Virus record (IMG/VR): IMGVR_UViG_3300034196_000127
Span: 1 to 37,469 of that record
Direction: 5' to 3' (one strand)
Source of the DNA: a virus
Length of the DNA: 37,469 nt
A program made the translations under genes and the position numbers. The notes beneath the pieces were generated by a model that had not been told where the DNA came from, did no database searches, and was given only the letters and a program-made list of their open reading frames with translations. Below are positions 8,230 through 21,958 of the stretch, piece after piece. Within the stretch, counting starts at the first letter, position 1; every line of letters begins with the position of its first letter.

Positions 8230-8254
8230 GAATGATGAATGATGAATGATGAAT
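8230..8254. repeat. Short tandem repeat, 7-bp unit
   Basis: Three and a half copies of GAATGAT in a row fill the spacer between the genes at 8260 and 8217. The repeat sets the distance between one stop and the next ribosome site, and could vary by slippage. Confidence 0.7.
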
Positions 8255-8259
8255 GCAGA

Positions 8260-8463
8260 TCAGGCCGTCGGCGGTCGCTGCGGCCGGCTCGCCTCGCTCA
8301 GCGCGTCCCAGGCCGGCGCCGCCATGCGGAGCGGCGTCAGCGCCAGCCGGGCCAGCTCGCGGGCGGCCGAGGGCTCCAGGGCCTGATCCTCGACCAGCTC
8401 GGCGGCCAGGGCCTCGATCTCCTCGCGCACGTCGGCGCGGCGGGTGCGGGTGCGGCGGCTCAC
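8260..8463 (-). CDS. Small helical protein, 67 residues, unknown
   Basis: GTG 8463 overlaps the stop of the preceding gene (GTGA). The sequence is basic at the start (SRRTRTRRADV) and then helical (EEIEALAAELVEDQALEPSA). No family is recognised. It belongs to the early operon by coupling. Confidence 0.55.
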   Translation of the reverse strand: MSRRTRTRRADVREEIEALAAELVEDQALEPSAARELARLALTPLRMAAPAWDALSEASRPQRPPTA

Positions 8464-8780
8464 GGGTTCACCTCGCGATCCAGGCCAAGCGCGATGGCGC
8501 GGGCCTCGCCGACGGCCCGCGCCATCGGGTTGGTCGCCTTCGCCACCAGCACCGGCCCCAGCCGCTCGGCGGGCAGCAGCCCCAGCGCCACCCAGCCCAG
8601 GATCACCAGGCGCCCGCTCATCCGCCGCGCCGTCGCCAGCACGCTGGCCTGGGCGCACACCTGAACGTCGTCGAGCGAGGCTAGCCACAGGGCCTTGGCG
8701 ACCTCCGTCCCGCCCCGCCACTCCTCCGCCGTCAGCATCCCCGGCGCTACGATCGTCAGCCCCTCAGTGGTAGTGCTCAT
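8460..8780 (-). CDS. Early-operon protein, 106 residues, unknown
   Basis: ATG 8780, with GAGAGG about 10 bases upstream, is preferred over the longer open frame. The product is helical (EEWRGGTEVAKALWLASLDD) with one moderately hydrophobic stretch (RLVILGWVALGLLPAERLG) that is more likely a buried helix than a membrane span. It is second in the operon driven by the promoter at 9783-9811, 94 bases downstream of the first gene. Function is unknown. Confidence 0.6.
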   Translation of the reverse strand: MSTTTEGLTIVAPGMLTAEEWRGGTEVAKALWLASLDDVQVCAQASVLATARRMSGRLVILGWVALGLLPAERLGPVLVAKATNPMARAVGEARAIALGLDREVNP

Positions 8781-8874
8781 CCGTGGTATCCTCTCTGCTG
8801 CCGAGGCGGGTGTTTCTTGGAGGTCTCGCCCGTCTCGACTTGGGGGCTCAGGAGCAATCCTGAGCCCTTGCGTG

Positions 8875-9732
8875 TTACAGCGCCCGCAGCGCCCGCCGGC
8901 AGAGGTCGGCCATGCCGTGCAGCGCGTCAGTGATCGGCAGCGAGGCGTAGAACAGCTGATCGGCGGCGTCGCCGGGCTCATCGGCGCAGGGCAGCAGCGC
9001 CTCGACAGTGGCCGCGATGCGCTCCAGGGCCTTCGCCGCGTCCCGCAGGCTGCGGCGCGACTCGGCCAGCGACCGGGGCGCGTCTACGAGGTCGCCCACC
9101 AGGGCGGCGGCGCGGCCGGGGGTGAGGAAGCTCAGGCGCTCCGCCGGCGTGGGCTCGAAGGGCAGCGGGTCGGGGGTATGCACCCAGTGGCCCGCCTCCC
9201 CGTCGTTGCGGTAGTCCTCGTACTCGGGCGGGATGTCGCCGGGGAAGGGCGTGCGCTCCAGGCCCTCGCGCTCGCTGCGGGCGGCGAAGTAGACCTCGGC
9301 CTCGGCGCGGACGCGGGGCTGGGCGGCGATGTAGGCGGCGTAGCAGTCGTTGTTGTCCGCTGCGGCCTTCGCCAGCTCCAGCTGGCCCAGCGCCTCGGCC
9401 TCGGCCAGCTTCGCCGCCGCGATCTCGGCCAGCTTCAGCTCCCAGCGCTCGCGGATGCAGCCCCAGGGGATGTCGATGCCCCGCTCGACACGCAGGTAGC
9501 AGGCCATGTCGATGGCCTGCAGCAGCCGCGCGTCCGGGGTCAGCTCCGCCAGCTGCGCCCACGCCTCGACCGGCGCCGTGCGGAACGTCGCCATGAGCGC
9601 CGCGCACACCACGTCGGCGGCCGCGAGCTGCTGATCGCGCAGGATGGTGTTGATCTCCCGGCGGTTCCGCGACTCCAGAAGGGTGAGGTTGTGCTGGTAG
9701 CGGTTGAGGCGGTAGGCACGGGTGGTGGTCAT
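8875..9732 (-). CDS. First gene of the early operon, 285 residues, unknown
   Basis: ATG 9732 has AAAGGAG in front and lies about 45 bases after the predicted transcription start, so it is the first product of the promoter opposing the repressor gene. In temperate phages this place holds lytic-side regulators or early replication/recombination genes. The protein is mostly alpha-helical and charged (IRERWELKLAEIAAAKLAEA; RRSLRDAAKALERIAATVEA), without membrane segments or enzyme motifs I can name. Confidence 0.7.
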   Translation of the reverse strand: MTTTRAYRLNRYQHNLTLLESRNRREINTILRDQQLAAADVVCAALMATFRTAPVEAWAQLAELTPDARLLQAIDMACYLRVERGIDIPWGCIRERWELKLAEIAAAKLAEAEALGQLELAKAAADNNDCYAAYIAAQPRVRAEAEVYFAARSEREGLERTPFPGDIPPEYEDYRNDGEAGHWVHTPDPLPFEPTPAERLSFLTPGRAAALVGDLVDAPRSLAESRRSLRDAAKALERIAATVEALLPCADEPGDAADQLFYASLPITDALHGMADLCRRALRAL

Positions 9733-9782
9733 GGCGGTGGTCTCCTTTGTTGGCTAGCGATGTTGACTTGTTCTTGAGAATA

Positions 9783-9811
9783 ATTATAGAGGATAAGCCG
9801 ATTGTTGTCAA
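9783..9811 (-). promoter_or_regulatory. Early (lytic-side) promoter
   Basis: On the minus strand a perfect TTGACA (9811-9806), 17-base spacer and perfect TATAAT (9788-9783). It drives the operon at 9732-7321. The -35 lies in the left arm of the shared operator, so the repressor would block it directly. Confidence 0.9.
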
Positions 9812-9839
9812 GACCTTCTGAGGTGATCTTGACAACAAT
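9801..9839. promoter_or_regulatory. Shared operator between repressor and early operon
   Basis: Two perfect 13-base arms (ATTGTTGTCAAGA and its complement) at 9801-9813 and 9827-9839 with a 13-base spacer. Each arm contains the TTGACA -35 box of one of the two divergent promoters. Arm centres are 26 bp apart, two and a half turns. This is the expected binding site of the Xre protein encoded next door. Confidence 0.85.
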
Positions 9840-9857
9840 TCAGGCACATGCTAGGAT
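9829..9857 (+). promoter_or_regulatory. Repressor promoter
   Basis: TTGACA (9829-9834), 17 bases, TAGGAT (9852-9857): a good sigma70 promoter, weaker at -10 than its divergent partner. It starts transcription about 28 bases before the Xre gene. Overlap with the operator arm implies autoregulation. Confidence 0.85.
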
Positions 9858-9891
9858 AAGCAGCGTTGTGAGAGAGAAAGAGAGGCCGAGG

Positions 9892-10173
9892 ATGTCAAAA
9901 ATCGTCAGCAAGGCGCGGAGGCTTCGGCTAGATTACGCCTCGAAGATTGGGCGTCCTGTGGAGCTGCGCGAGGTGGCTGGTGCAATCGGGATGACCGATG
10001 CGGCACTGTCCCGCTTCGAGCGAGGCCAAACAGAGCGCGTCGATTTTGACACGCTCCAGAAGCTCTGCGGGTTTTACACGGAGAAACTGGAGAAGCCTAT
10101 TGGAGTTGGGGATATCTTGGAGTATGATCCAAATAACAAGCGGGGCTTCGAGCTAGCCGGCGTTAGTGCCTAG
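9892..10173 (+). CDS. Xre/Cro-CI family repressor
   Basis: A 93-residue protein. The start at 9892 has GAGAGG upstream and lies after the promoter; the longer frame would begin inside it. Residues about 24-62 are a Cro/CI helix-turn-helix (ELREVAGAIG, MTDAALSRFERGQ, FDTLQKLCGFY). No C-terminal cleavage or dimerisation domain of lambda CI size is present. As the only repressor-like gene, divergent from the early operon across a symmetrical operator, it is the candidate lysogeny switch. The end of the gene forms part of its own terminator stem. Confidence 0.88.
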   Translation: MSKIVSKARRLRLDYASKIGRPVELREVAGAIGMTDAALSRFERGQTERVDFDTLQKLCGFYTEKLEKPIGVGDILEYDPNNKRGFELAGVSA

Positions 10174-10186
10174 CTCGAAGCCCCGC
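10140..10186 (+). terminator. Terminator of the Xre gene
   Basis: Perfect 17-base arms (10140-10156 and 10170-10186) with a 13-base loop that includes the stop codon, followed by TGTTTGT. The stem uses the last coding bases of the repressor gene. Confidence 0.75.
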
Positions 10187-10250
10187 TGTTTGTGGCCGCG
10201 CTGCGACCGTCGAAAAGCTCAGCGCCGCCACTGGTACCGTCGACCTCCCT
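10182..10250. repeat. Boundary repeat of small-gene array, copy A
   Basis: About 68 bases that align with 11221-11284 at roughly four bases in five, beginning CCCGCTGTTTGTGG and including TCAGCGCCGCCAC (10219-10231). A partial copy is at 10748-10760. Further on, a small hairpin (GCTCCC..GGGAGC) and AAAAGGAGAG look like the leader of a plus-strand gene, but no start codon follows. The plus-strand partner gene of this unit seems to be lost. Confidence 0.6.
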
Positions 10251-10324
10251 GCCGTGCGACCTGAAGATCGGCATCTATGGTGAAGCTCCCTCTGAGGGAG
10301 CGGGCACCCAAAAGGAGAGTAGCC

Positions 10325-10720
10325 TTACTTACACAAGGGCAGTCCTACATCAAGGATGGGCTGGGTGGACACGGGGTAGCGTGAGTCTAATGGGTCTGGA
10401 CGCCGGATCGGGGCAATATCTTGAAAGCGCCCACTACTCACCGCTGTGCCATTCAGCGCATAGGTCTTCCCGTCGGCGATGAAGACCACGTAGCGCCCCT
10501 CAAGGCACATTACAGAGCCTTTATCTACGGTAAATGGCCACTTATCGCCCAACTCAGCACGCGTAATGGTGCGGTTGGTGCCTTCACTGGCGGGCACGCT
10601 GGCCGGCGAAGCCCTACGCTGCCCGGTGCTCCAAAGCATGAAGCCACCAATGGCGATCGCAAGGACGACGAGGGCAAGCAACTTCGTGTTCTGGTTACGT
10701 TGTGGAGTAGATTGCTGCAC
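10325..10720 (-). CDS. DUF2511-like anchored or exported protein
   Basis: A 131-residue protein. The N-terminal polar stretch is followed by one membrane/signal segment (LLALVVLAIAIGGFMLW). The rest matches the pattern of the YebY-type DUF2511 domain: ITRAELGDKWPFTVDKGSVM, a cysteine, YVVFIADGKTYALNGTAV, and a second cysteine near the end. Start GTG 10720 is preferred to GTG 10738 because GAAAGGCGTTGAAA, the same box that precedes neighbouring minus-strand genes, is then correctly placed. Such a protein in a phage is a likely lysogenic conversion gene acting at the envelope. The function is unknown even for the family. Confidence 0.7.
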   Translation of the reverse strand: MQQSTPQRNQNTKLLALVVLAIAIGGFMLWSTGQRRASPASVPASEGTNRTITRAELGDKWPFTVDKGSVMCLEGRYVVFIADGKTYALNGTAVSSGRFQDIAPIRRPDPLDSRYPVSTQPILDVGLPLCK

Positions 10721-10842
10721 GATTTCAACGCCTTTCACTGGAAAGTCTCAGCGCCGCCACGATGCTACCCACCGACTCTCACTGCTGAGTCATCGGCTTC
10801 TATGAACACTGCCCCCAATGGGAGCGAGGAAGGGACTGAGGG

Positions 10843-11052
10843 ATGGACGAAGAAGGAGTCCGTCAGATCGTGCGGGAGGAACTCTCCCAATTGCTCAATG
10901 TCTCGACAGCCAGGCTAGATCATCTCAAGGCCGAAATCGTCCAGAGCATCTCGCAGATGCTCAGCGCGTCCCTTGATCAGGTCATTCTTGTCCATGCATC
11001 ACCCGATGCATCTTCTGAAAGCCGTCAATCAGGATCTGGTCGTTCTTGCTGA
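10843..11052 (+). CDS. Small helical protein, 69 residues
   Basis: ATG 10843 follows GAGGAAGGGACTGAGGG. The first 50 residues are convincing and amphipathic (GVRQIVREELSQLLNVSTAR, then LDHLKAEIVQSISQMLSASL). The last 20 overlap a minus-strand gene at 10982 and look unnatural, so the 3' end may have been lost and replaced. Function unknown. It is one of the alternating tiny genes of this region. Confidence 0.55.
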   Translation: MDEEGVRQIVREELSQLLNVSTARLDHLKAEIVQSISQMLSASLDQVILVHASPDASSESRQSGSGRSC

Positions 11053-11185
11053 GGATGTCTACGAGCACGGTGAGCGGCATCCAGATCTCGCGATACCCGT
11101 CGCCATCGGGGACGCGGAGGCAGATTTCGGCGTTACGGAAGTGCTCTGCTCGTGTCTGCTCCTGGGGTAGTTGCTTGTCTGACAT
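10982..11185 (-). CDS. Small protein, 67 residues, unknown
   Basis: ATG 11185 is preceded by GAAAGGGTTTGAAA, the box found before other minus-strand genes of the array. The product looks like a genuine small domain (FRNAEICLRVPDGDGYREIW, MPLTVLVDILSKNDQILIDG). No family is recognised. It converges with and overlaps the 3' end of the plus gene at 10843 by 71 bases. Confidence 0.6.
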   Translation of the reverse strand: MSDKQLPQEQTRAEHFRNAEICLRVPDGDGYREIWMPLTVLVDILSKNDQILIDGFQKMHRVMHGQE

Positions 11186-11190
11186 GGTGT

Positions 11191-11204
11191 TTCAAACCCT
11201 TTCG
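11191..11204 (-). promoter_or_regulatory. Recurring ribosome-site box GAAAGGGTTTGAAA
   Basis: This 14-base box, read on the minus strand, ends 5 bases before ATG 11185. Copies occur at 11780-11793 (before GTG 11772), 12162-12175 (one base different, no gene follows) and 10723-10736 (two bases different, before GTG 10720). AAAGGG supplies the Shine-Dalgarno part; the conserved TTTGAAA suggests a further role. GGAAAGGGTTG at 14249 on the plus strand is related. Confidence 0.6.
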
Positions 11205-11220
11205 TCGCAGGATGCGCCGC

Positions 11221-11284
11221 CCCGCTGTTTGTGGATGCGCTGCGCACCGGATCAAAGTTCTCAGCACCGCCACTATGGCTACCT
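11221..11284. repeat. Boundary repeat of small-gene array, copy C
   Basis: Second full copy of the boundary element at 10182-10250: CCCGCTGTTTGTGG, then GCGCTGCG, then TCAGCACCGCCAC at 11261-11273. Here it is followed by a hairpin, AAGGAGAGAGG and a real start codon at 11322, which shows what copy A has lost. Confidence 0.6.
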
Positions 11285-11321
11285 CCCCGCTAGGAGAGGG
11301 AAGACCCGATAAGGAGAGAGG

Positions 11322-11567
11322 ATGGACAAAGCACCTGACGTGTATCTTCGGGAGATGCACCAGCGTACGCTCGAGCTGTCAGCAGCCATGCATCGCCGGA
11401 TCACGGAAATTCAGGCGGAAATCGATGCGGGCCATAGCGTTCGACGAGCCCTCCGAATTCGACTTCCCAAAGTTGTCGGGTTTCGTCGGCCGAGCCGAAC
11501 GCCGGCCCAACGCGCCCCAAACGGCGCCGCCGCGTGGTGGCGATTAAGTCCTGGTAGTCGTCGATAA
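11322..11567 (+). CDS. Small plus-strand ORF, C-terminal half doubtful
   Basis: ATG 11322 has AAGGAGAGAGG. The first 40 residues are plausible and helical (VYLREMHQRTLELSAAMHRR). After that the reading is arginine- and proline-rich, antisense to the gene ending at 11401, and does not look like protein. The original 3' end was probably replaced. Same pattern as the gene at 10843. Confidence 0.45.
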   Translation: MDKAPDVYLREMHQRTLELSAAMHRRITEIQAEIDAGHSVRRALRIRLPKVVGFRRPSRTPAQRAPNGAAAWWRLSPGSRR

Positions 11568-11772
11568 GCGCCACGAGCAGGCCACGCAGGCGGTAGAACT
11601 CAGGATGGTCGGGAAGGTCTGCGACGAACGGGCGGAGCGCATCAAGGGAGACCGCGTAGGCGCGAAAGAGGTTGCGGTCATAGGTGGTGTCCTCCGCTTT
11701 GCCATGCACCGCCGCCACGACGGCAGAGACTGCGCGCCAGGCGGTGCCATAGCAGAGAAGCGTTGCGTACAC
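11401..11772 (-). CDS. Small helical protein, 123 residues, unknown
   Basis: GTG 11772, 8 bases after the GAAAGGGTTTGAAA box (11780-11793). Helical throughout the middle (AYAVSLDALRPFVADLPDHP, LRGLLVALIDDYQDLIATTR), with a tyrosine- and proline-containing end (VERYGPHRFPPEFP). No family is recognised. It is convergent with and overlaps the plus ORF at 11322. The ribosome box is the main support for this start. Confidence 0.55.
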   Translation of the reverse strand: MYATLLCYGTAWRAVSAVVAAVHGKAEDTTYDRNLFRAYAVSLDALRPFVADLPDHPEFYRLRGLLVALIDDYQDLIATTRRRRLGRVGPAFGSADETRQLWEVEFGGLVERYGPHRFPPEFP

Positions 11773-11817
11773 GTGTTTTTTTCAAACCCTTTCATTCGGG
11801 AGGGGAGGAACGTTGCG

Positions 11818-12156
11818 ATGATCGAAGCTGAAACGGAAAAGCTGCTCCCCAAGGGGTATTTCAATCTTCCCAAGCTGCGCAGGGCGCTGGAGCAGCTGCG
11901 CCAGGAGATGCATGTCAACCCTGACGCGATCACGCTCCTCGACCAGCTCGACGCCTGGCTCACACCAGAGATGCGCCCGCTGCCATCCCTAACCAACCCA
12001 GCAGCGCTGGCCAAGACGATCAACACCTTTCACTCCGCCCTCGCCAGCGACGATCCCGAGTTAGTGCGCTTGTACGCCACCACCCTCTTCCGGCTCAGTG
12101 CGGCGACGATGTGCGGCGTCTACACGAGCGGCGCCCAGGTGGTCTACGAGATCTAG
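11818..12156 (+). CDS. Helical protein, 112 residues, unknown
   Basis: ATG 11818 follows GGGAGGGGAGG. Mostly alpha-helical (LPKLRRALEQLRQEMHVNPD, AKTINTFHSALASDDPELVR, LYATTLFRLSAATMCGVYTS). Last plus gene of the array, it ends about 170 bases before a strong terminator. Only 45 bases separate it from the start of its divergent neighbour, so both ribosome sites share this gap. Function unknown. Confidence 0.6.
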   Translation: MIEAETEKLLPKGYFNLPKLRRALEQLRQEMHVNPDAITLLDQLDAWLTPEMRPLPSLTNPAALAKTINTFHSALASDDPELVRLYATTLFRLSAATMCGVYTSGAQVVYEI

Positions 12157-12372
12157 TTTTTTTTCAAACCCTTTGCACAGGCCCTCGGAACCTTACCAAC
12201 TTGTCTTCTGAGACACCAAAAGCGCCGGCCTGGTGGCCGACGCCTGGTGCTGAGCGGGGGCTCAACGCAACGAGCCGGCTCTAGAGTGGTGGAGATGGGG
12301 GGACATAGCCCACCTCCGCCACCCTAGAACCGGCTCCGCTATGCGAATCATCGCATAGCAGAGCCGGTTTTT
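12157..12372. other. 216-bp structured gap with competing hairpins
   Basis: No gene is seen here. It starts with an orphan copy of the recurring box (12162-12175). It then holds a hairpin around GGCCTGGTGGCC (near 12225), a 23-base arm pair (12272-12294 with 12314-12336, three mismatches) and the terminator at 12328-12373. The arm at 12328-12336 can pair in either of the last two, so they exclude each other. Confidence 0.65.
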
Positions 12373-12373
12373 T
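12328..12373 (+). terminator. Strong rho-independent terminator
   Basis: Eighteen base pairs with a single mismatch (12328-12346 with 12351-12369), loop ATCA, and six T at 12368-12373. It ends plus-strand transcription exactly at the stop codon of the opposing recombinase 2 gene. Confidence 0.9.
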
Positions 12374-13452
12374 CATGCCGCTTTCCCGCCGATCACCCGG
12401 AAGGTGAGCCGCTCCACCCCCTCCCGCTCATCGCTCGTGCGCGCAGCGGCCGGCAGCTCGGCCCTAAAGCGCAGCAGCTCGACCGCCTCGTGCTCCTTTG
12501 CCGACGACGCCGCGATGTAGCGCAGCGTGGTCTTCGGGTCGCTGTGGCCCAGCAGACGCTGGATCGTCAGCAGATCCACCCCGCGCACATACAGCTCGGT
12601 CGCAAACGTGCGCCGCAGCTGGTGCGGGCTGACCAGCGGCGGCAGCTCGCCCTCGGCCACAGGCCAGCGCCTGGGCAGCCAGCGCTCGAAGACATGGCCC
12701 ACCGAGCGGTGGTCGAGCCCCGCGTCATCACCACCAGTGCTCAACACCGGCGCGTGGGCCGGCTGCGGCCCGGCCTCGGCCAGCTCGGCGAGCAGCTCGG
12801 CGCAGATCGGCACCACCCGCGAGCGGCCGCCCTTCCCGTAGCGCACGGTCAGCTCGCGCCGCTCCAGATCCAGATCCCCCCAGAGCAGCTTCGCCACCTC
12901 CTCCCGCCGCAGGCCGGCGTACAGCATCAGCAGGATGCAGCGCCGGTTGCGCGGCCAGGTCACCCGGTGTGACCGTGGCGGCTTGTCGATCGCCGTAAAC
13001 AGATCGCGGATCTGGCTCCGGGTAAGCACGTTCGGCGGGGGCGGGATCACCCGCGGATGGCGCACCCCGAGCGCGGGGTTCTCCGTGAGATAGCCCCGCT
13101 CAACGCACCAGGCGCAGAAGGTGCGCAGGGTGGTCAGCGCATTCCGGGTAGTCCCTGGGCACACCAGGGTGCCCTCCGGGTCGCCCCGTCGCCGGCGGCG
13201 GGTGGGCCGGCTGCCCAGGGCGGTCTTGTAGTCGGCGATGCGGTGGCGGGTCAGCGCATCGACCCGCAGGTCGGCGCCCGCCCAGGCTAAAAACGCCTCT
13301 ATGTGCTGGCGATACCGCGCTACGCCGCGTGGCTGCATGCCGTCGGCGGTGCGCGATGCGCACCAGTGGTCGAGCAGATCCACGATGCGCGGGGACGGGG
13401 CCTCAGGGGGCTGCCGGAGCAGCCACCGGAGGATGGTTCGGAGGATAGCCAT
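12373..13452 (-). CDS. Tyrosine recombinase 2
   Basis: A 359-residue recombinase, distinct from the first. ATG 13452 is chosen for its AGGAG site; the open frame extends further without one. A SAM-like core-binding domain spans about 20-125 and the catalytic domain about 140-330. Catalytic residues: Arg182 (AGLRREE), Lys207 (GKGGR), His277-x-x-Arg280 (HQLRRTF), His303 (LGHSD), Tyr312 (LRYIAA). XerC/D-like in layout, with an extra 30-residue C-terminal tail. Two recombinases in one phage genome suggest separate jobs, integration and multimer resolution, or one acquired with the neighbouring array. Confidence 0.92.
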   Translation of the reverse strand: MAILRTILRWLLRQPPEAPSPRIVDLLDHWCASRTADGMQPRGVARYRQHIEAFLAWAGADLRVDALTRHRIADYKTALGSRPTRRRRRGDPEGTLVCPGTTRNALTTLRTFCAWCVERGYLTENPALGVRHPRVIPPPPNVLTRSQIRDLFTAIDKPPRSHRVTWPRNRRCILLMLYAGLRREEVAKLLWGDLDLERRELTVRYGKGGRSRVVPICAELLAELAEAGPQPAHAPVLSTGGDDAGLDHRSVGHVFERWLPRRWPVAEGELPPLVSPHQLRRTFATELYVRGVDLLTIQRLLGHSDPKTTLRYIAASSAKEHEAVELLRFRAELPAAARTSDEREGVERLTFRVIGGKAA

Positions 13453-13821
13453 ACGTCGAACTCCTGGTACTCCCTGGCCAGGGTCAGCGAATGGCGCGCG
13501 CCAGATCACGCCCGCGCAGGAAGACACCCTGCGCGGGCAGACGTCGCGCACAAGAGTACCAGATCTAAAGGGCGATACAACCATACATCGTAATTTTCCC
13601 CGGCTGTAATGATATTTTTCACCCCGCCGCCGCTCGGCTCAACGGCGCAGCGGCGGGGCCTACCACCTGGCGGCCGGACGATGCCGGACGGCCGCCAGAA
13701 CGTCACTATGCACGATGCACCACGACGCCACAACCCCCGCGAAGCCCGCACGAGGCCCCCCGCGAACGAACGGCGGCGCTGGGCCACAACGGGCCGCACT
13801 GGGAGGCGGCGAACAAATCCA
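13453..13821. other. Gap upstream of recombinase 2 with hairpins
   Basis: About 370 bases without a convincing gene. Two GC-rich hairpins with 9-bp arms lie at 13622-13658 and 13667-13698. An A/T-richer stretch (13565-13620) could hold the recombinase promoter: on the minus strand TTACAG, 18 bases, TATGGT. A reading frame is open on the plus strand here but has arginine- and proline-rich, unlikely content. Confidence 0.5.
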
Positions 13822-14100
13822 ATGACAACTACGCGACGGCGCTGGCCGACGGCGGCGAGTGCCGCACGCCGGCTGGCGATGCGAAACCTGGAGCGCCAGA
13901 TCCACATCTATCGCGAGCTGCTGCGCGAGCCGAAGATTTATGGCGACAACAAGCTGGCGAGGATGATCTACGAGGCGATGGCCCTGGCCGAGCAGGCCCT
14001 CCGCGAGCTGGCAGAGGTCAAGCCCTACCCCGATGACGAGGCGCCCAGCGAGGCGCCCGCCGAGGGGGACGCGAACACCCCCGCCGAGCCGCATATCTGA
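13822..14100 (+). CDS. Small helical protein, start uncertain
   Basis: The convincing part begins at Met 13879 (RNLERQIHIYRELLREPKIY, then KLARMIYEAMALAEQALREL) and ends in an acidic, proline-rich tail. Neither ATG 13822 nor 13879 has a good ribosome site, so the product is 92 or 73 residues. An overlapping frame just upstream also reads plausibly (HNGPHWEAANKSNDNYATAL), so a frameshift or sequencing indel near 13875 is possible. Function unknown. It precedes the replication initiator. Confidence 0.5.
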   Translation: MTTTRRRWPTAASAARRLAMRNLERQIHIYRELLREPKIYGDNKLARMIYEAMALAEQALRELAEVKPYPDDEAPSEAPAEGDANTPAEPHI

Positions 14101-14166
14101 ACCATCGCGGGGGTGTTCGCGGGGCATTCCCGGGGCTATACCCGGACAGAGCGCCCGATGAGGATT

Positions 14167-14206
14167 AAAAAGCCCCATCGCCCAGGCATATGCCTGGGCG
14201 ATGGGG
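14167..14206 (-). terminator. 34-bp perfect palindrome with T-run on the minus strand
   Basis: Bases 14173-14206 form a perfect palindrome (17-base arms, half CCCCATCGCCCAGGCAT). On the minus strand it is followed by CTTTTT, giving a terminator that faces recombinase 2. It lies upstream of the initiator gene, so on the plus strand it is in that gene's leader. Confidence 0.7.
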
Positions 14207-14313
14207 AGACGCCGAGCCATCGTCGCCTGCGAGCGAGCGAGGGCAATAGGAAAGGGTTGCACCACTATGATACCACGGCCACTGTGTCAGCCAGTGTCAC
14301 ACGGAGGGACGCC

Positions 14314-15600
14314 ATGATGGCATTGCCTTCCCCTATTATCGACCAACTGCTCGATCTGAACCGATCCGCACAACTCAAAGGCGCGCTGCGGATCTACGCG
14401 CTCGCCGGCACCGACGGGGTGGCCGTGCTGAACGGCGGCGTCCGCGGGTGGGCTGAGGCCCTCGGCTGCGGGCGTAGCTACCCGAAGGTGTTGTTTGGTG
14501 AGCTGGAGCGGCTTGGCATCATTCACGGAGTTGAGTTCTACCCGGGTGAGGGGGGCCAGGTTGCCGAGGTGTACCTGGAGCCGGCGGCGGATTCGATCAC
14601 TGATCAGGCGCTGGCTCCCGCGCTGCCACCGGACGGCCATGACGGATCGCATCAGGACGCGGAATGCCATGCGGCTGATCGATCACTGATCGAACCCCCC
14701 CACACCCCCCTATATGGTACTGATCATGATCTTAAGCAGCAGCAGCATGCGGCTAATCCGAAATCGGATATTGCTGATGAGCCCGGCATGACGGGCCGAC
14801 TGCTGCGACAGGAGTTCCCCCAGGTTGACCAGGCGCTCATCGCCGCCTGGGAGGCTGACCCGCGCGTCGATACCGAAGCGGCGGCGAAAGCGCTCTGCGG
14901 CCAGCCCGAGGCGACCCTGGAGCTGTGGCACGCGCAGATCGCAGCAGCTGAGCGCCGGCGTGGGATCGACACGCCGATCGGCTTAGTCTTGGCAATCTGG
15001 GGCTGCGGTAAGCTTGTGAACTCGCCACGCGCCCAGTCGCGGCCACCCGAGCGGCGATCCTGCCGGCCCCCATTCCCGCCAGAGATCAACCCGGCGAACT
15101 ACCACGACAACCCGCTGTACCTCGTCGGCGACGGCCCCGACGACCGCGCCGTGGAGACCGAAGCCGATCTGCCGGCCCAGGCCGAGGAGGCCCGGCGCGA
15201 ACCCCCGCCGCCCCCCGAGCCCGCCCCGCCTCCGTCGATCCCCTTCCTGCTCCAGGGAGCCGTGAATATGGGAGGCCAGCCGCGCAACCCCGTCGAGCAG
15301 GCGTTTCTCATCGAGCGCTTCGAGGCCGGCGACGATTCCCGCGCAGCGGTGCGGGCGCTGTACAACCGGCGCCGCGATGAGCTGGCGCGGCTGAAAGCCA
15401 GGGACGAGGCCCTGGTCGCCGAGGTGGCGCAGCTGCTCGGCGGCGCGCCGCCGACCCCAGACGAGCGGCGGATCATCGCAAGTCGCCTAGGCCTCAAGGA
15501 CTCTCCCGAGGAGATCGCGGCGGCGCTTCGGAGCAAGCGCGAGCGCCAGCCCAGCCGGAAGAAGCGGGCGGTCGTAGACCGCCCGCCAGGAGGTGACTAG
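14314..15600 (+). CDS. Replication initiator-like winged-helix protein
   Basis: A 428-residue protein. ATG 14314 is preceded by GGAGGG. Residues about 10-95 look like a winged helix-turn-helix (ALRIYALAGTDGVAVLNGGV, WAEALGCGRSYPKVLFGELE, RLGIIHGVEF). A polar linker follows; its DNA carries repeated TCGATCACTGATC motifs. A helical middle (LLRQEFPQVDQALIAAWEAD) ends in GCGKLVNSPRAQ. Then come a proline-rich stretch and a basic C-terminus. DNA-binding head, internal repeats and first place in the replication/segregation operon parallel lambda O-type initiators. No helicase or polymerase motif is present, so host replication proteins would be recruited. The role is inferred. Confidence 0.6.
   Translation: MMALPSPIIDQLLDLNRSAQLKGALRIYALAGTDGVAVLNGGVRGWAEALGCGRSYPKVLFGELERLGIIHGVEFYPGEGGQVAEVYLEPAADSITDQALAPALPPDGHDGSHQDAECHAADRSLIEPPHTPLYGTDHDLKQQQHAANPKSDIADEPGMTGRLLRQEFPQVDQALIAAWEADPRVDTEAAAKALCGQPEATLELWHAQIAAAERRRGIDTPIGLVLAIWGCGKLVNSPRAQSRPPERRSCRPPFPPEINPANYHDNPLYLVGDGPDDRAVETEADLPAQAEEARREPPPPPEPAPPPSIPFLLQGAVNMGGQPRNPVEQAFLIERFEAGDDSRAAVRALYNRRRDELARLKARDEALVAEVAQLLGGAPPTPDERRIIASRLGLKDSPEEIAAALRSKRERQPSRKKRAVVDRPPGGD
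14593..14731. other. Iteron-like repeats inside the initiator gene (candidate origin)
   Basis: TCGATCACTGATC occurs at 14593-14605 and 14679-14691. A related ACTGATCATGATC, containing the palindrome GATCATGATC, is at 14719-14731. They cluster in the part that encodes a linker of the initiator, as origin iterons do in lambda gene O. A locally A/T-richer stretch follows (to about 14780). Confidence 0.5.
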
Positions 15601-15819: not shown

Positions 15820-16872
15820 ATGCCCAACGCTATCGACACCACGCCCGCCGATGCGCCGCTGAGCGGCGATGAGCAGCGCACCCTGGCCGAGCACGAGGCG
15901 GTGATCGCCGACGGCATCACGACGTTCCTGGCCGTCGGCGCATCCCTCGCGGCCATCCGCGACGGCCGCCTCTACCGGGTCGCCCATGACAGCTTCCCCG
16001 ACTACCTGGCCGAGCGCTGGCCGCAGCTCGGGGGCCGGCGCCAGGCCGACCGGCTGATCATCGCGGCCGAGGTGAACAAGGACTTGAGACCAATTGGTCT
16101 CAGTGTGGCGAACGAGGCGCAGGCCCGCGAGCTGGGCGGGCTGCCCGCCGAGGGCCGACGGGAGGCCATGCGCCGCGCCACAGCCCAGGCCGGCGACAAG
16201 CCGCCCATCGCCGCCCAGGTGCGGGCCGCCGCCCGCGCCGTCGCGGCCGAGCCCGCCCCCGAACCCCTGGCCGCCGTCGCCGCAGCGCTGCGGCACGGCA
16301 CCATCCACGACGCCTACGCCGCAGCGCAGGCCGCTGGCGCACACTACGACCGCGCCATGGCCGCAGTGGACGCCCGGGTCGAGGGCAGGCCGCTGGACGC
16401 CGCCCTGGCCATCCTCCAAGCGCCCGAGGACAAAGGAGCCCCGATGCCCACGATGCCCACGCCGGCCACGGAGCCGGCCCCCACGCCCGCCCCGCCGGCC
16501 TTCGACGCCCGGATCTGGTCGCTGTACGCGACGGCGGCCGGGGCGAAGCTCATGGTCTACGCCCACGACTACCAGCTGATGACGCCCGACGAGACGCGCC
16601 GGCGCTACACCGACGATGCCCTGCCCGCCCTGATGGAGCGCATCAGCGCGCTGATGTACGCGGCCCTGGCCTCGCACGCCCCGCACGCCCCGCACGCCGG
16701 CCGCCCGCGCCTGCCCCGCATCCCACCCCGGCCCGCGCCCGCCCGCGACGACGACCCCGTCGGCCTGGCCCGCGAGGCGACGGAGTGGCGGCGCTGGGCG
16801 CACTGGGCCGAGGACACGGTGGCACTGCTGTCGGGGGATGAGCGGCCCGCACGCGAGAAAGGAAACCTATGA
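15820..16872 (+). CDS. ParB/KorB-like DNA-binding protein
   Basis: A 350-residue protein. ATG 15820 lies 1 base after the preceding stop. Residues about 40-145 match a domain common in plasmid and phage proteins: LAAIRDGRLYR, HDSFPDYLAERW, RQADRLIIAAEV, EAQARELGGLPAEGRREAMR, with a helix-turn-helix around the RQADRLI helix. A helical alanine-rich part, a proline hinge (near 220) and a second helical domain follow. Its place in front of the ParM operon suggests operator or partition-site binding. A perfect 18-bp palindrome (16085-16102) lies in the codons right after the HTH. DNA binding is likely; the specific role is inferred. Confidence 0.65.
   Translation: MPNAIDTTPADAPLSGDEQRTLAEHEAVIADGITTFLAVGASLAAIRDGRLYRVAHDSFPDYLAERWPQLGGRRQADRLIIAAEVNKDLRPIGLSVANEAQARELGGLPAEGRREAMRRATAQAGDKPPIAAQVRAAARAVAAEPAPEPLAAVAAALRHGTIHDAYAAAQAAGAHYDRAMAAVDARVEGRPLDAALAILQAPEDKGAPMPTMPTPATEPAPTPAPPAFDARIWSLYATAAGAKLMVYAHDYQLMTPDETRRRYTDDALPALMERISALMYAALASHAPHAPHAGRPRLPRIPPRPAPARDDDPVGLAREATEWRRWAHWAEDTVALLSGDERPAREKGNL
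16085..16102. repeat. 18-bp perfect palindrome in the ParB-like gene
   Basis: TGAGACCAATTGGTCTCA, perfectly symmetrical, encoding part of the segment between helix-turn-helix and the following helices. It could be an internal operator. Since homologues of the domain have a variable, glycine/proline-containing segment here, it may be neutral. Confidence 0.5.
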
Positions 16873-17786
16873 GCGCTGATGATCGGGAGGTGCTGCAGGA
16901 GCGCCTGCGCAGGGCCGAGGATCTGGCCGCCGCCGCCGCCGGCGATGTGGAGGCCGCCACGACCGCCCGCGCAGCGGCCCTGGAGCTACGCCAGGAGCGT
17001 GCCGGGCTCCTGGACATCGCGGCTGCGGCCGAGAGATTCCTACGTGCGGCCGGGATGGCCGAGGATCTGAGCGCTCCTGGCGCCGCGCTGGAGCAGGCCC
17101 TGGCCGCGCAGTTCCCCGAGCCCAATCCCGGACGCACGCGCTGGTGGATCAGCCATGCGATCGATGCCGCCCGGTTGGTCCCGGCGAGCGACCTGCCGGA
17201 GATCCGGGCTAGCGAAAACCAGCGGCGCTATGTTCGGGGCGCGAACGAGGAGCGCGACGCGGCGAACCTGCGGGCGACCGCGTGGTATCAGCAGTGGGCA
17301 GACGCCAACCGCGCGGTCGAACGGGCGCAGCTGCGCGCGGCAGGGGCGGAGGCCCGCGCCCAGCGCCTCATCGGTCAGATGGGGGCCGCCGTCGCCGACG
17401 CCGCGCCTGATCTCGGCGACTGGCTCGCCCAGGAGGCCGCCCCGCGCCGGCCGGATCGGAGCCTGCCGCCGGCAGAGATGATCCTCCGCCTGGATGGCTA
17501 CATCGGCGCCGCCCGATACGTGATCGCCGGCCTCCAGGGCAGGCCCTTCTCCTGGCGCGGCGTGGACGGCCAGCACGAGTTGCCCCGACTGGCCGCGATG
17601 GGCGTGACGCTGGTCTCGAAGAGCCACGCCGAGCGGCTCGGCTACCGGCTCAAGAAGAACGCGCAGCCGGTGGGCGAGCGCTACTTCCAGTCCCCGATCA
17701 GCCGCGCCGCCTTTGTGTACGTGCTGGAGTGCCAGTGTGTGCCGGCTGATCCCGAAGAAACGAAAAAAGCAGAAGCCGAGTTATGA
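16869..17786 (+). CDS. Coiled-coil protein of the segregation operon, 305 residues
   Basis: ATG 16869 overlaps the preceding stop (ATGA). Residues 1-60 and about 125-170 are long charged helices with coiled-coil character (LQERLRRAEDLAAAAAGDVE; RAVERAQLRAAGAEARAQRL). The C-terminal third is a compact domain (LDGYIGAARYVIAGLQGRPF, VTLVSKSHAERLGYRLKKNA). The family is not recognised. Coupling to the ParB-like gene and to ParM suggests it works with them. Confidence 0.65.
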   Translation: MSADDREVLQERLRRAEDLAAAAAGDVEAATTARAAALELRQERAGLLDIAAAAERFLRAAGMAEDLSAPGAALEQALAAQFPEPNPGRTRWWISHAIDAARLVPASDLPEIRASENQRRYVRGANEERDAANLRATAWYQQWADANRAVERAQLRAAGAEARAQRLIGQMGAAVADAAPDLGDWLAQEAAPRRPDRSLPPAEMILRLDGYIGAARYVIAGLQGRPFSWRGVDGQHELPRLAAMGVTLVSKSHAERLGYRLKKNAQPVGERYFQSPISRAAFVYVLECQCVPADPEETKKAEAEL

Positions 17787-17806
17787 CCACGACAAGGGAG
17801 TTATCG

Positions 17807-18790
17807 ATGCTCGCAGGACACGGCCCGAACATCGGCCACGGCCACGTGAAATACATCGTTATCGACAAGAGCGGCAAGGAGCTGCCGCCGGTCATCTTCC
17901 CGGCGATGATCGCCCGCGCCGGTCGCGCCGTCGCCGGCGCGCTCTCCAGCGCCGCCACCGTGGACCGGGGCGGCGCGCAGTGGTGGGTCGGCGACGACGC
18001 GCTGCTGGCGCCGAGCCAGCTGACCATGCTGGCCCAGGAGCGCCTGAGCGACCCGATCTTCGTCCCGGCCCTGGTGAGCGGCGCGCTCCAGCGCCTGGGG
18101 CACCTCAACGGCGCCGCCAGCGGCGTGTGCGTCACCGGCCTGCCGGCGACCTGGTCGGCCGACGTGGAGAAGGCCCGCGCCCTGGGCGAGCGGCTGCGGG
18201 CCGCCGCCCCCGGCTACACCAAGATCCGGGTTATCCCCGAGCCCCTGGGGCTGATCTACAGCGCGCTCCTCGACGCTGACGGGCAGCTCGTGGGGGACGC
18301 GGCGCTGACCACGGGGCGCATCGCGGTGGCCGACCTCGGCCACCTCACCGTGGACCTCTCGACGATCCGGCGCCTCACCCCCGAGCCGGCGGGCCTGGAG
18401 ACCTATCAGCTGGGCACGGTCGTTCCTCTGCGCCAGATTCGGGCGCAGCTCTCCAGCCACTTCGAGCGCGAGCTGAGCCTCTACGAGACGGATATGGCGG
18501 TGCGAGCCGGCGGCATGCGCGTGGCCGGGCAGCAGCAGGCGCTGCCCGTCGGCTGGGATCGCCCGCTGCGCGAGGCCGGCGCGGCAATCGCCGCCCGCCT
18601 GGTCGAGGCCTGGGGGCGCGGCACGCAGTTCGACGCGATCCTGATCGGCGGGGGCGGGGCTGAGATCCCGCACCTGGTCGAGGCGATCCGGCGCTCCTTC
18701 CCCCACGCCGCCGCCGTCGCCGACCCGCAGATCGCCATCGCCCGCGGCTACGCGAGATTGGCCCGCCGCCTGGCCCGCGAGGCGGCGTAA
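17807..18790 (+). CDS. parM: ParM-type actin-like ATPase
   Basis: A 327-residue actin-fold protein. The ATG at 17807 has GGGAG 6 bases away; ATG 17783, eight codons upstream, overlaps the previous stop (ATGA) and is the alternative. Actin signatures: phosphate-1 loop GPNIGHGHVK at residues 6-15, phosphate-2 VADLGHLTVD at 174-183 and adenosine motif IGGGGAEIPHL at 280-290. EPLGLIYS (145-152) matches the connecting strand region of ParM. ParM proteins polymerise to push plasmid copies apart. Phage relatives (Alp proteins) move or position viral DNA. It sits in one operon with a ParB-like gene and an adaptor-like gene carrying palindromes. Confidence 0.85.
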   Translation: MLAGHGPNIGHGHVKYIVIDKSGKELPPVIFPAMIARAGRAVAGALSSAATVDRGGAQWWVGDDALLAPSQLTMLAQERLSDPIFVPALVSGALQRLGHLNGAASGVCVTGLPATWSADVEKARALGERLRAAAPGYTKIRVIPEPLGLIYSALLDADGQLVGDAALTTGRIAVADLGHLTVDLSTIRRLTPEPAGLETYQLGTVVPLRQIRAQLSSHFERELSLYETDMAVRAGGMRVAGQQQALPVGWDRPLREAGAAIAARLVEAWGRGTQFDAILIGGGGAEIPHLVEAIRRSFPHAAAVADPQIAIARGYARLARRLAREAA

Positions 18791-19140
18791 TGCCATCGAC
18801 GCTGCCTCAGCTGCCGGTGCGAACCAGCCAGGCTCTGCGCGATCTGATCGCGCAGGCCGGGCCGGTCAACGCGGCCGTGCGTGCGCTGCTCATCCTGGGC
18901 GCCCATGCGGTGGGGCTGGATATCGGCCCCGCGATCGAGCCCGAGATTTATTCCCTGCTGGCGTGTCCGACGCTCGACCCCGCGATCCGTGTAGCTCTGG
19001 GCGCAGTGGAGATCCATGCGCCTGTGCCAGCGTCCCGCATAGGTGACAGCACCGGTGCTGTCACCGGTGACAGCACCGGTGCTGTCACCTTACCAGCGAG
19101 GGAAGATGACCCGTTTGCGGGGATAGGGATCGAGGTCTGA
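18790..19140 (+). CDS. Adaptor-like protein after ParM (ParR candidate)
   Basis: A 116-residue protein; its ATG at 18790 overlaps the ParM stop by one base (TAATG). Residues 8-40 (VRTSQALRDLIAQAGPVNAA, VRALLILGAHAVG) could form the helical part of a ribbon-helix-helix fold, as in ParR. The next 40 residues are helical. The tail encodes GDSTGAVT twice because two perfect 24-bp palindromes lie in it, and ends in the acidic DDPFAGIGIEV, a plausible ParM-contacting peptide. Size and position fit a centromere-binding adaptor. Sequence similarity to ParR is not obvious. Confidence 0.55.
   Translation: MPSTLPQLPVRTSQALRDLIAQAGPVNAAVRALLILGAHAVGLDIGPAIEPEIYSLLACPTLDPAIRVALGAVEIHAPVPASRIGDSTGAVTGDSTGAVTLPAREDDPFAGIGIEV
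19042..19089. repeat. Two tandem perfect 24-bp palindromes (candidate centromere)
   Basis: GGTGACAGCACC followed by its complement makes one 24-bp perfect palindrome; a second identical copy follows without a gap (19042-19065 and 19066-19089). The result is four 12-bp half sites in alternating direction. Iterated sites next to parM/parR genes are the hallmark of partition centromeres. It lies in the 3' part of the adaptor gene, in frame. Confidence 0.65.
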
Positions 19141-19157
19141 GAGACAGGAAGAAGGAA

Positions 19158-19184
19158 GCGGGCCGATGTAGCGCATCGGCCCGC
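19158..19184 (+). terminator. Hairpin between adaptor and membrane-protein genes
   Basis: Perfect 11-base arms (GCGGGCCGATG and complement) with loop TAGCG. A second hairpin with 8-base arms (CGCTGGCG) follows directly. There is no T-run. They divide the operon into a replication/ParM part and a membrane/ATPase part, and probably lower expression of the latter. Confidence 0.5.
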
Positions 19185-19243
19185 CGCTGGCGAAGGGCCA
19201 CCACGCCAGCGTAGCAAGGAATCTACCACGAAAGGGCCTTCCC

Positions 19244-19855
19244 ATGCAGAGTGAACCCCGCCCGAGCTGCGCCGCGCGCCTGCTCGATATCCGCACCTAC
19301 GTGATCGCCGCCCGTCGCGCGATGCTGAACGCCGATCCGGGCGCCGCCGTCTTTATGATCGCCGTCTTCGGGCTGATCGCCCTCTGCCTGCTGCCTCTCT
19401 ACCTCACCTTCGACCTCGGCTCGACATGGACATTTACCACGGGCCTGCGCGACGCCGCCGCACCGGCGATCAACGATGTGGCCGCGCAGGTGGCCGGCTG
19501 GCTCCAGATGAGCATCGGCACCGTGTTGGCCGGCGTCATCCTTACGAGCTTCACCATGCTGCCAAGCCTCTTTGAACTGGCCTTCCCCAGCGTGCAGCAC
19601 CCGCTGCTTTCTCTCGTGCTGCTTGTTAGCATCGTGTTTGACTACGTGACCGACTGGGGAAAGACCTGGGCACTTGTTGGCACCTGGACGGATAACCCCG
19701 TGATCCACTTCGTGGGCACGGTCTTCCTGTGCGCATTCTTCTCTGTTGGTGTCCAGGCTGTACTTGTGTGCTGTATCACCGTGATCATCTTCGGGATTAT
19801 CTCGCTCGTGAGCGGCAGTAAGCGGCAGGTTGAGGCGGTCGTTCTTCAGCGGTAA
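19244..19855 (+). CDS. Multi-pass membrane protein, 203 residues
   Basis: ATG 19244 has AAAGGG upstream (the GAAAGGG element again). About four membrane spans: GAAVFMIAVFGLIALCLLPL (35-55), a weaker one around VAGWLQMSIGTVLAGVIL (85-105), PLLSLVLLVSIVFDYV (120-135) and VFLCAFFSVGVQAVLVCCIT with VIIFGIISLV after it (155-190). No transporter motif is recognised. Together with the ATPase that follows 10 bases later and the small membrane protein after it, it could form a membrane platform for a DNA motor. This is inference from order. Confidence 0.65.
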   Translation: MQSEPRPSCAARLLDIRTYVIAARRAMLNADPGAAVFMIAVFGLIALCLLPLYLTFDLGSTWTFTTGLRDAAAPAINDVAAQVAGWLQMSIGTVLAGVILTSFTMLPSLFELAFPSVQHPLLSLVLLVSIVFDYVTDWGKTWALVGTWTDNPVIHFVGTVFLCAFFSVGVQAVLVCCITVIIFGIISLVSGSKRQVEAVVLQR

Positions 19856-19865
19856 GGAGGGCGTC

Positions 19866-21257
19866 ATGTCCTTGATCACTGCTGAGGAGCTGGCGCGCGG
19901 ACTAATCATCGGCACGTTCGGCGGCGCGGCCGGGCTCTGCACGGTCGCGTTTCCCGGCTCGGTGCTATGGCTGCTGCCCGCCGGCCTGGCCGTAGGGGGG
20001 TGCGCCCTGACGGTGCCTGAGGTGCGGCAGGAGGTGATCCGCGCCCTGCCTGCGCGGGCCGAGCTGCCGGCCCTGGCCGACAAGCTACGGCGGGCGCTGC
20101 CTGTGCTACCCGCTGGCCGCCAGGTCGAAGACCAGGCCGCCGCACCGCTGGCCAGCAGGCGCAGCCCTCGGCCCGCCCAGGCCGAGCCGGCGGGGCAGGC
20201 GCTCCCCCCGCGTGAGTGGCTGCGCGCCGTCAACGATCTGCCCGACGATAACCCGCACATGACCGTGGTCGGGCCGAGCGGATGCGGCAAGACCACGTTT
20301 GTGTCCGCCACCCTGAGCCAGCGACCGGGCCGGGTGGTGGTACTCACGCCGAAGGTGAGCCCCGGCGCGTGGCGGGGCGCCGAGGTCGTCACCCTCAGCG
20401 ACGATCTGAGCTACGCGCCGCTGGCCGATGCGCTCAATGATCTCCAGACCGAGGCCAAGCAGCGAACCCTGGCCCTACGCCGCGGCGAGCCGCTGGAGCC
20501 AATGACCGTCGTACTCGACGAGTTGCCCGAGCTGCACGCCGAGATCCCCGGCGCGGGCAAGTTTGCGGTGCGCCTCTCGCGCTGGGGGCGCGAGCTGGGC
20601 ATGCGCCAGGTCGTGCTGGCCACCTCAGACGACGCGCTCAACATCCCCGGCTGGGCGGCCACCCGGTCGAACTACGTGCGGGTCGAGCTGGGCAAGCCCG
20701 CCCCCGACGGGAGGCGGCCCGCGATGCTCGACGATGGCCAGAGCCGCCGCCCGCTCGACCTGGGCAACGTCAAGGGCGGCGCCGATCGGGCGCAGCTGCG
20801 CCCCTGGCGGGCGGCCCATGTCGATCCGTTCGAAGGGGAAACGACCCAACTCACGCCCATTCCGAGCATTCCTCCCGTGTCTGCCACTGAGGCCAGCGCG
20901 CTCCTGGCCAGCTACCTCGATGAGGCCATTCCTCCGCATCAGGACGCCGAGGGAATGGTCATTCATCCTATTCCCGGGAATAGGATGAATGACCATTCCT
21001 CGGTCACAGTGGAGCCGGGAACGGGGCCGGGCGTTACCCTCAATGTTATCCAGACAATCACGGGGAAGGGAGGCCGGCAGGCCGATAACAGCGCCTACGC
21101 ACAGGCCCTCATCGCCCTCTACCGGGCTGCTGGCGCCGATGGGATCACCTTCACCAAGGCGTATGCACAGCACAAGGGCACCAAGGAAATAGCCTTCACG
21201 GCATGGCAGGAAGGGAAAGCCGCCGCGCAGAAATCGAAGGAAGAGGCACCATCGTGA
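19866..21257 (+). CDS. Membrane-anchored FtsK/HerA-like ATPase
   Basis: A 463-residue protein. ATG 19866 has AAGGAGGG. Two hydrophobic segments at about 12-28 and 32-50 anchor it. After a linker, the P-loop domain spans about 115-320: Walker A GPSGCGKT (136-143), Walker B TVVLDE (214-219), and LSRWGRELGMRQVVLATS (237-254), which resembles the conserved arginine/sensor stretch of FtsK/VirB4-type motors. A second linker (325-395) contains the 48-bp palindrome. A helical C-terminal domain (SAYAQALIALYRAAGADGIT) may be a winged helix. DNA pumping at the membrane is the family role. Here it may serve segregation, recombination or transfer. Confidence 0.75.
   Translation: MSLITAEELARGLIIGTFGGAAGLCTVAFPGSVLWLLPAGLAVGGCALTVPEVRQEVIRALPARAELPALADKLRRALPVLPAGRQVEDQAAAPLASRRSPRPAQAEPAGQALPPREWLRAVNDLPDDNPHMTVVGPSGCGKTTFVSATLSQRPGRVVVLTPKVSPGAWRGAEVVTLSDDLSYAPLADALNDLQTEAKQRTLALRRGEPLEPMTVVLDELPELHAEIPGAGKFAVRLSRWGRELGMRQVVLATSDDALNIPGWAATRSNYVRVELGKPAPDGRRPAMLDDGQSRRPLDLGNVKGGADRAQLRPWRAAHVDPFEGETTQLTPIPSIPPVSATEASALLASYLDEAIPPHQDAEGMVIHPIPGNRMNDHSSVTVEPGTGPGVTLNVIQTITGKGGRQADNSAYAQALIALYRAAGADGITFTKAYAQHKGTKEIAFTAWQEGKAAAQKSKEEAPS
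20952..20999. repeat. 48-bp perfect palindrome in the ATPase gene
   Basis: Two perfect 24-base arms meet without a spacer (left arm begins GGAATGGTCATTCATCC). Beyond a bulged G, four more bases pair (CCGA/TCGG). It encodes residues 363-378 of the ATPase in a linker between motor and C-terminal domain. Its length is far above what a coding sequence gives by chance. Confidence 0.85.
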
Positions 21258-21607
21258 AACTGATCGGAGCAATCACCGCCCTCGGCGCGCTGGCGCTGGG
21301 CTGGTTTATCACCTGGCGGATCACCAGCGGCGTAGAGTCCTGGTTCGCCGCCAGCGGGGCGGGCAACGTACTGGGGTGGTCGCTCGTCGCCGCCCTGGCC
21401 CTCGCCGTCTTCGCCATCCCGGCGGGCGCCTGGGGTCTCGCCATTCGCATGTGGGTCGTGAAGATGCGCCGCGATGAATATCTTGGCAGCACCCCGCACG
21501 CGCTGCTGCCCCAGGCTGCGGCGCAGATCGCCGCAGCTGAGCAGCCGAGACTGCTAGCGACACAAACAAAGGAGCTGTGTGATGCGACTACCCGACGGCT
21601 CGATTGA
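21254..21607 (+). CDS. Two-span small membrane protein, 117 residues
   Basis: GTG 21254 overlaps the ATPase stop (GTGA). Two membrane spans (LIGAITALGALALGWFITW and LGWSLVAALALAVFAIPAGA) are followed by a basic stretch (RMWVVKMRRDE) and a polar helical tail. Coupling to the ATPase suggests a partner in the same membrane complex. No family is recognised. Confidence 0.65.
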   Translation: MKLIGAITALGALALGWFITWRITSGVESWFAASGAGNVLGWSLVAALALAVFAIPAGAWGLAIRMWVVKMRRDEYLGSTPHALLPQAAAQIAAAEQPRLLATQTKELCDATTRRLD

Positions 21608-21860
21608 GGTGAGGGTATGCTACGAAACGGGATTTCTACGCGACCTCCTGGCCCGCCCGCTGCGGCGCGGCATGCGCTGCGACGGCTGCCAACACTGGCA
21701 ACCCGACCCGGAGTGGCTGGGTGAGGGCGAGTGTGACGCGCAGGATGAGCGCGAGTACACGAGTGACTATATGGCCTGTGTCCACTGGAGTCCGAAGCTG
21801 GGCAGCGACCTCGACTACATGGGCGTTCCGCTCGCTAGTCCGGCTGCTCAGCTTGACTAG
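21582..21860 (+). CDS. Cysteine-rich small protein, 92 residues
   Basis: ATG 21582 has AAAGGAG; a GTG one codon earlier is possible. It overlaps the preceding gene by 26 bases. CDGCQHW (near 34) with further cysteines at about 51 and 66 in GECDAQDEREYTSDYMACVH could bind zinc. It is the last gene of the plus-strand operon. The function is unknown. The Cys-x2-Cys-x14-Cys-x14-Cys spacing differs from common zinc ribbons. Confidence 0.6.
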   Translation: MRLPDGSIEVRVCYETGFLRDLLARPLRRGMRCDGCQHWQPDPEWLGEGECDAQDEREYTSDYMACVHWSPKLGSDLDYMGVPLASPAAQLD

Positions 21861-21910: not shown

Positions 21911-21958
21911 CGCAAACAGCCGCCCCAGTCCGATCTCGGACTGGGGCGGCTGTTTGCG
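21911..21958. terminator. Bidirectional hairpin between converging operons
   Basis: Perfect 23-base arms (21911-21933 and 21936-21958) around a TC centre, core CCGCCCCAGTCCGA. On the plus strand GTTT follows. The 160-bp gap it occupies separates the ends of the plus-strand (21860) and late minus-strand (22021) operons, so it should stop both. The remainder of the gap shows nothing else. Confidence 0.8.

Follow-up and report, generated by a model that had tools for sequence, protein, structure and literature searches.

Gene content and layout of the operon

The DNA analysed here (the window) is the virus record IMGVR_UViG_3300034196_000127 at its full length of 37,469 bases, and its plus strand carries an unbroken run of genes from 15820 to 21860, as a preliminary description of this DNA had proposed. 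The genes of the run are packed closely or overlap, with a single longer gap of 103 bases ahead of the gene for a membrane protein, and the core of the run (17783-21257, plus strand) encodes a ParM-family protein, an adaptor whose gene contains a tandem palindrome, a polytopic membrane protein, and a P-loop ATPase. Upstream of this core, the product of the first gene (15820..16872, +) had been called ParB-like, a label that found no backing, the protein having no match in Pfam, PHROGs, or NCBIfam; a true ParB is encoded by L002, a related viral contig. The second upstream gene (16869..17786, +) matches, over its C-terminal part, a small protein of the prophage L072 that is placed there between ParM and the motor. 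Downstream of the core, a second, small membrane protein (21254..21607, +; conserved in L002 and matched more weakly in L024 and L028) and a Cys-rich small protein (21582..21860, +; conserved in L002 and L010) are both present as first described, and the latter possibly binds zinc. Beyond the run, a terminator-like 23-bp inverted repeat (21911..21958) lies where the early and late operons converge, and a scan of the window against Rfam returned no match.

A ParM-family actin, a putative adaptor, and centromere-like repeats

The gene at 17783..18790 (+), in which an internal ATG at 17807 is another possible start, encodes a protein that profile searches place among the ParM-family actin-like ATPases, in agreement with the ParM signatures noticed earlier. 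Taken alone, the window sequence gave matches that were weak yet consistent (ALP_N, 2.6e-5; PHROG "partition protein", 4.8e-21; NCBIfam ParM, 1.9e-12), and the profile of its family gave a full-length match to solved ParMs (pCBH ParM at 2e-14, as well as Dh-cParM1, ParM 3js6, and Alp12). Within the nucleotide-binding motifs, several glycines and one aspartate are invariant among 13 relatives. An AlphaFold model of the protein, built from 2-3 sequences, was poor (pLDDT 39.5), and the actin fold is supported here by sequence comparison. Overall, the filament half of the operon can be assigned with good confidence as a ParM-type partition system.

The next gene (18790..19140, +) encodes, judging by its size and layout, a putative ParR-type adaptor. 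Its short N-terminal domain is RHH-like by eye, with no profile match and no solved-structure match, and is followed by a variable linker and a conserved, acidic or hydrophobic tail (DPFAxIGIEV) at the C-terminus. Nearly all of the loci that we compared have a gene of adaptor size after ParM, and two adaptor families among them showed no link by profile comparison. The tandem palindromes reported earlier for this gene are two exact 24-bp copies (19041..19090) in its linker-coding part, and they form a putative centromere-like site made of four GGTGACAGC half-sites, which are absent elsewhere in the window (chance expectation, 0.5). Comparable clusters were found in L002, with four TGTATACAG copies directly 3' of the adaptor gene and none elsewhere in 20.7 kb, and in the prophage L071, with four TGTTGAAC sites within the adaptor gene at a spacing of exactly 33 bp. 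Exact motif searches therefore recovered, in the window, L002, and L071, the clustered repeats by which a ParMRC centromere is recognized; these searches replaced a count of repeated 9-mers, a weak test that was unsuccessful at roughly half of the loci. At L061-L063, repeats at the adaptor were weak or absent, with none that was clear. The position of these adaptor-end repeat clusters is conserved and their sequence is not, as is expected for adaptors and sites that co-evolve.

The membrane module: a polytopic protein and an anchored ATPase

The membrane protein (19244..19855, +; 203 aa) carries an FDYVTDW motif and several hydrophobic segments, which bears out its description as a multi-pass protein. 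Membrane proteins of this kind fall into three families, with no link by profile comparison in the two of the three pairs that were compared. Ahead of the gene lies a double-hairpin leader (19158..19211, +; stem 1 at 19158-19184 and stem 2 at 19185-19211), the stems of which show covariation across four sequences (the window, L002, L005, and L010). As the leader is present in L005 and L010, where ParM is absent, it belongs to the membrane-ATPase half and marks the join between the halves. Strong hairpins were seen ahead of the membrane gene in many further loci too.

The ATPase (19866..21257, +) consists of an N-terminal hydrophobic membrane segment, a motor domain with Walker A (GPSGCGKT) and Walker B motifs, a linker, and a C-terminal helical domain. 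It had been proposed as a membrane-anchored FtsK/HerA-like ATPase, and its anchor, Walker motifs, and profile kinship all agree with this, although its own score against Pfam FtsK_SpoIIIE (12.6 bits) lies below the 24-bit cut-off. By hhalign, its profile aligned with those of the FtsK-type ATPases that occupy the same cassette slot (E 8.9e-6, probability 83), and the best solved match of the profile was an FtsK/SpoIIIE protein (FtsK/EccC 4nh0, 1.6e-5). The FtsK cut-off in Pfam is passed by the cassette ATPases of L061 (1.2e-14) and L065 (3e-15) and also by that of L031, which has no ParM. Given this comparison with cassette relatives and the relatives above the cut-off, the window ATPase is a probable member of the FtsK/HerA family and a predicted translocase, and the motor half can be assigned as FtsK/HerA-type with moderate confidence. 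An AlphaFold model (2-3 sequences) was poor (pLDDT 43.6), its core being better than the rest, and a structure search with this low-confidence model returned EssC first, FtsK within the top ten, and HerA further down.

Compared with its counterpart in L002, the window ATPase is near-identical over the first ~60 residues and very different in the motor domain, so it is a mosaic protein. The linker-coding part of its gene contains a perfect 48-bp palindrome (20952..20999), and palindromes occupy the same linker spot in L002 (10895-10942), L005 (5315-5362; L005/L032), and L025 (6237-6270), with mostly unrelated sequences among the four relatives. These palindromes are possibly a site for the C-terminal domain of the ATPase, or else inserted palindromic elements.

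Recurrence in Chloroflexales and exchange between the two halves

Of 82 Chloroflexales genomes searched with a ParM profile, 18 contained a relative of ParM. At 13 of 15 intact ParM loci, ParM is succeeded by the adaptor, the membrane protein, and the ATPase in this order, as against none of 123 control genes. These 15 loci, the window and L002 included, each have an intact ParM and more than 4 kb of downstream sequence, and they were scored for a same-strand, membrane-anchored Walker-A ATPase downstream of ParM; in most of them, its gene comes third after that of ParM. The loci L071-L074, four of the 13, are closely related to one another, and counting them once gives 10 of 12; ParM without the motor was seen in L066 and L069. 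The viral contig L002 carries the entire set in unchanged order with tail genes behind it, while L071/L085 and L077/L086 are prophages with terminase and portal families unlike those of the window. The same is true of the major head protein family in the L071 prophage, which adjoins an integrase in a 6.35-Mb contig. Scans of viral contigs returned few relatives. The proposed gene order is thus conserved in other contigs (L002 and the Chloroflexales loci), and the ParM part and the membrane/ATPase part, far from never co-occurring, are found together in many other genomes. The operon is real and recurrent.

The physical joining of a filament system to a membrane motor, as claimed in the preliminary description, is conserved and has been re-made repeatedly. 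In the fully supported ParM clade of L002, L065, and L067, all three members differ in membrane family and ATPase type. The ParM of the window shares 66-67% identity with those of L061/L062 and 32% with that of L002, whereas the membrane genes of the window match L002 (80% identity for the membrane protein). This mixture within a clade and this mismatch of identities indicate that the ParM-adaptor and membrane-ATPase halves recombined more than once with their order kept, ParM and adaptor staying paired and the membrane/ATPase half being exchanged. Such repeated re-joining in an unchanged order is the strongest evidence of a functional link between the halves. As the pairing recurs in many unrelated Chloroflexales phages and mobile elements, our data suggest that filament and motor act on the same DNA.

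Each half also occurs by itself. The membrane/ATPase pair was found without a nearby ParM at at least 8 loci (several of which are contig fragments). Many integrative elements carry such a pair with no ParM detected, and a ParA or ParB gene is often close by (L010, L026, L028, and L030). Since each half is found without the other, neither needs the other, and the two could be independent neighbours held together solely by the mosaic make-up of phage genomes, with ParMRC segregating DNA and the membrane/ATPase pair serving in entry exclusion, counter-defence, or the envelope. The covarying leader that the membrane/ATPase half keeps as its own, ParM-less loci included, would fit such independence. 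We nevertheless consider this reading unlikely, as motors and membrane proteins of different families have repeatedly been joined to ParM in an unchanged order, and as the ParM-less copies so often lie close to ParA/ParB genes. A defence role was rejected, the PADLOC matches being weak and lying mostly over the P-loop region.

Comparison with known systems

The centromere repeats of classical ParMRC systems lie upstream of parM. Like type II ParMRC systems (pCBH ParM, pSK41 ParM), the operon has ParM directly upstream of a small adaptor, with repeats nearby; unlike them, it has the repeats within the adaptor gene or directly behind it, and it further includes a membrane protein and an ATPase. 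The AlpAC/alpS system of the Corynebacterium prophage CGP3 likewise comprises a prophage actin, an adaptor, and repeat sites (PMC4446434, PMC5539076), and its actin AlpC acts with the adaptor AlpA to bring phage DNA to the membrane (PMC4446434). However, AlpA precedes AlpC and alpS lies upstream, whereas in the window ParM comes first and the sites are at the 3' end of the adaptor, so that the AlpAC arrangement of a leading adaptor and upstream promoter sites is not that of the window. In addition, a word search of the AlpC paper found no FtsK (PMC4446434), whereas the window operon has an FtsK-like ATPase.

Further precedents come from Bacillota, on the basis of published papers and one Brevibacillus record (NZ_CP085875). 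A ParM with an RHH adaptor is common in phages and Bacillus plasmid prophages (PMC8026635), and FtsK/SpoIIIE and Replic_Relax genes are reported often to adjoin the segregation systems of Bacillus plasmid prophages (PMC9658697), so the same kinds of proteins occur there as neighbours. In the Brevibacillus record, the adaptor ends in DMDFG, akin to the acidic tails of the Chloroflexales adaptors, but the FtsK and Replic_Relax genes diverge from ParM, with no gene for a short polytopic protein in between. No Replic_Relax was found among the window proteins scanned; in the L071 prophage, a Replic_Relax gene stands after the motor. Mycobacteriophage FtsK-like proteins have an FtsK core in common with L061 (31.6% over 28% of the query). 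The earlier statement that no described system has this full set is less well supported, as ParM-RHH, AlpAC, and FtsK/Replic_Relax are precedents; for the ordered ParM-adaptor-membrane protein-ATPase operon, a limited literature search found no description.

Genome form, lifestyle, and predicted host of the phage

The two ends of the record are an exact 127-bp direct repeat (window 1-127 and 37343-37469), which closes the genome into a circle of 37,342 bp with a junction that splits the large terminase gene. Besides terminase, the window encodes a major head protein, head morphogenesis, tape measure, and amidase proteins, and it is a complete circular tailed-phage genome. Two tyrosine integrases are encoded in these 37 kb (4354-5466 and 12373-13584 (-)), and the phage is probably temperate. 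The term phage-plasmid used in the preliminary description is not upheld, as these two integrases and the prophage relative within a 6.35-Mb contig make an integrated lysogen the more likely form. For the same reasons, we consider it improbable that the operon stabilises an extrachromosomal plasmid prophage in which the FtsK-like motor resolves dimers or clears the septum. The circular closure of the window would agree with such a prophage, as would the ParM-RHH and FtsK/Replic_Relax neighbourhoods reported for Bacillus plasmid prophages (PMC8026635, PMC9658697), but the closure fits a terminally redundant phage genome as well.

The host of the phage is predicted to be a Chloroflexales bacterium, since relatives of its membrane protein were confined to this order in our searches. 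A scan of genome contigs found a single genome relative of the protein, in Oscillochloris sp. ZM17-4, and matches to the family came from Chloroflexales alone in a search of the order and in a 400-genome sample of the phylum, the four matching genomes of the latter all being on the order-search list already.

Elsewhere in the window, a PIN-domain protein (5787-6517 (-)) with a small overlapping partner gene is likely a toxin-antitoxin pair, and more perfect palindromes lie at 14173-14206 (17-bp arms) and 7205-7258 (26-bp arms), one of them close to the start of the 14113 gene.

Proposed role of the joined halves

We tentatively favour, as a reading that comes close to being probable, a type II partition operon (parM-adaptor-centromere) that has been extended by a membrane module, the motor of which would receive or position excised phage DNA. 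Starting from the observed gene content, order, recurrence, module exchange, and repeat sites, we infer a course of binding, movement, and docking. After infection or prophage excision, the adaptor would bind the palindromic repeats in the 3' region of its own gene, and ParM filaments would, by analogy with ParM and AlpC, capture the adaptor-DNA complex and move the circular phage DNA. The membrane protein and the ATPase might then provide a dock, at the membrane or septum, where this same DNA is engaged and either translocated or retained, and replicating genomes could thereby be positioned, and shared out, along the host's multicellular filament. In favour of this reading, the module is present in prophages whose head and terminase genes differ. 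Given the integrases in the window and L071, partition may be dispensable for lysogeny in both.

Alternatively, the membrane protein and ATPase could be a pump for cell-to-cell DNA transfer along the trichome, like TraB of Streptomyces, to which ParM would deliver the DNA. The hosts, Chloroflexales, are filamentous, and an N-terminal membrane segment, an FtsK-type motor, and a C-terminal HTH-like domain would suit such a pump, as would the occurrence of the pair in integrative elements that encode an integrase and replication proteins and in which no structural genes were seen, and the location of Replic_Relax after the motor in L071 and beside FtsK in Brevibacillus. However, tailed phages already spread by particles, the window has shown neither a relaxase nor repeats like the clt sites that TraB-type translocases recognise through a C-terminal winged helix (the ATPase-linker palindromes being candidates for such sites), and L005 has a further, canonical FtsK together with an NlpC/P60 protein, which could do the transfer instead, all of which leaves the pump a distinctly unlikely explanation. 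Very unlikely, in our estimation, is that the entire operon is one machine in which filaments deliver DNA to an FtsK-type motor that pumps it through septa and into adjacent cells of the filament, with the phage spreading free of particles.

Actin-type partition systems have been described as consisting of three parts, and a recurrent fourth and fifth part, the membrane protein and the DNA-pump-like ATPase that were recombined again and again onto one position, would tell the destination of the filament's cargo. As a complete version is present in a prophage on a chromosome-sized contig, the role of a prophage actin at the membrane would become directly testable.

Two of the ParM-less loci have further features of their own. 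In L005, the region 6409-14740 encodes the canonical FtsK and the NlpC/P60 membrane protein, along with tiny membrane proteins and a large protein whose start resembles a signal peptide; the region looks like a transfer module or a non-tailed virion module. Initiator-like genes with in-frame tandem repeats were seen in L005 (1944-2795; DDLQIV) and in L010 (7645-8517 as oriented; DDQMIV), and these repeats are possibly origin iterons located within the gene.
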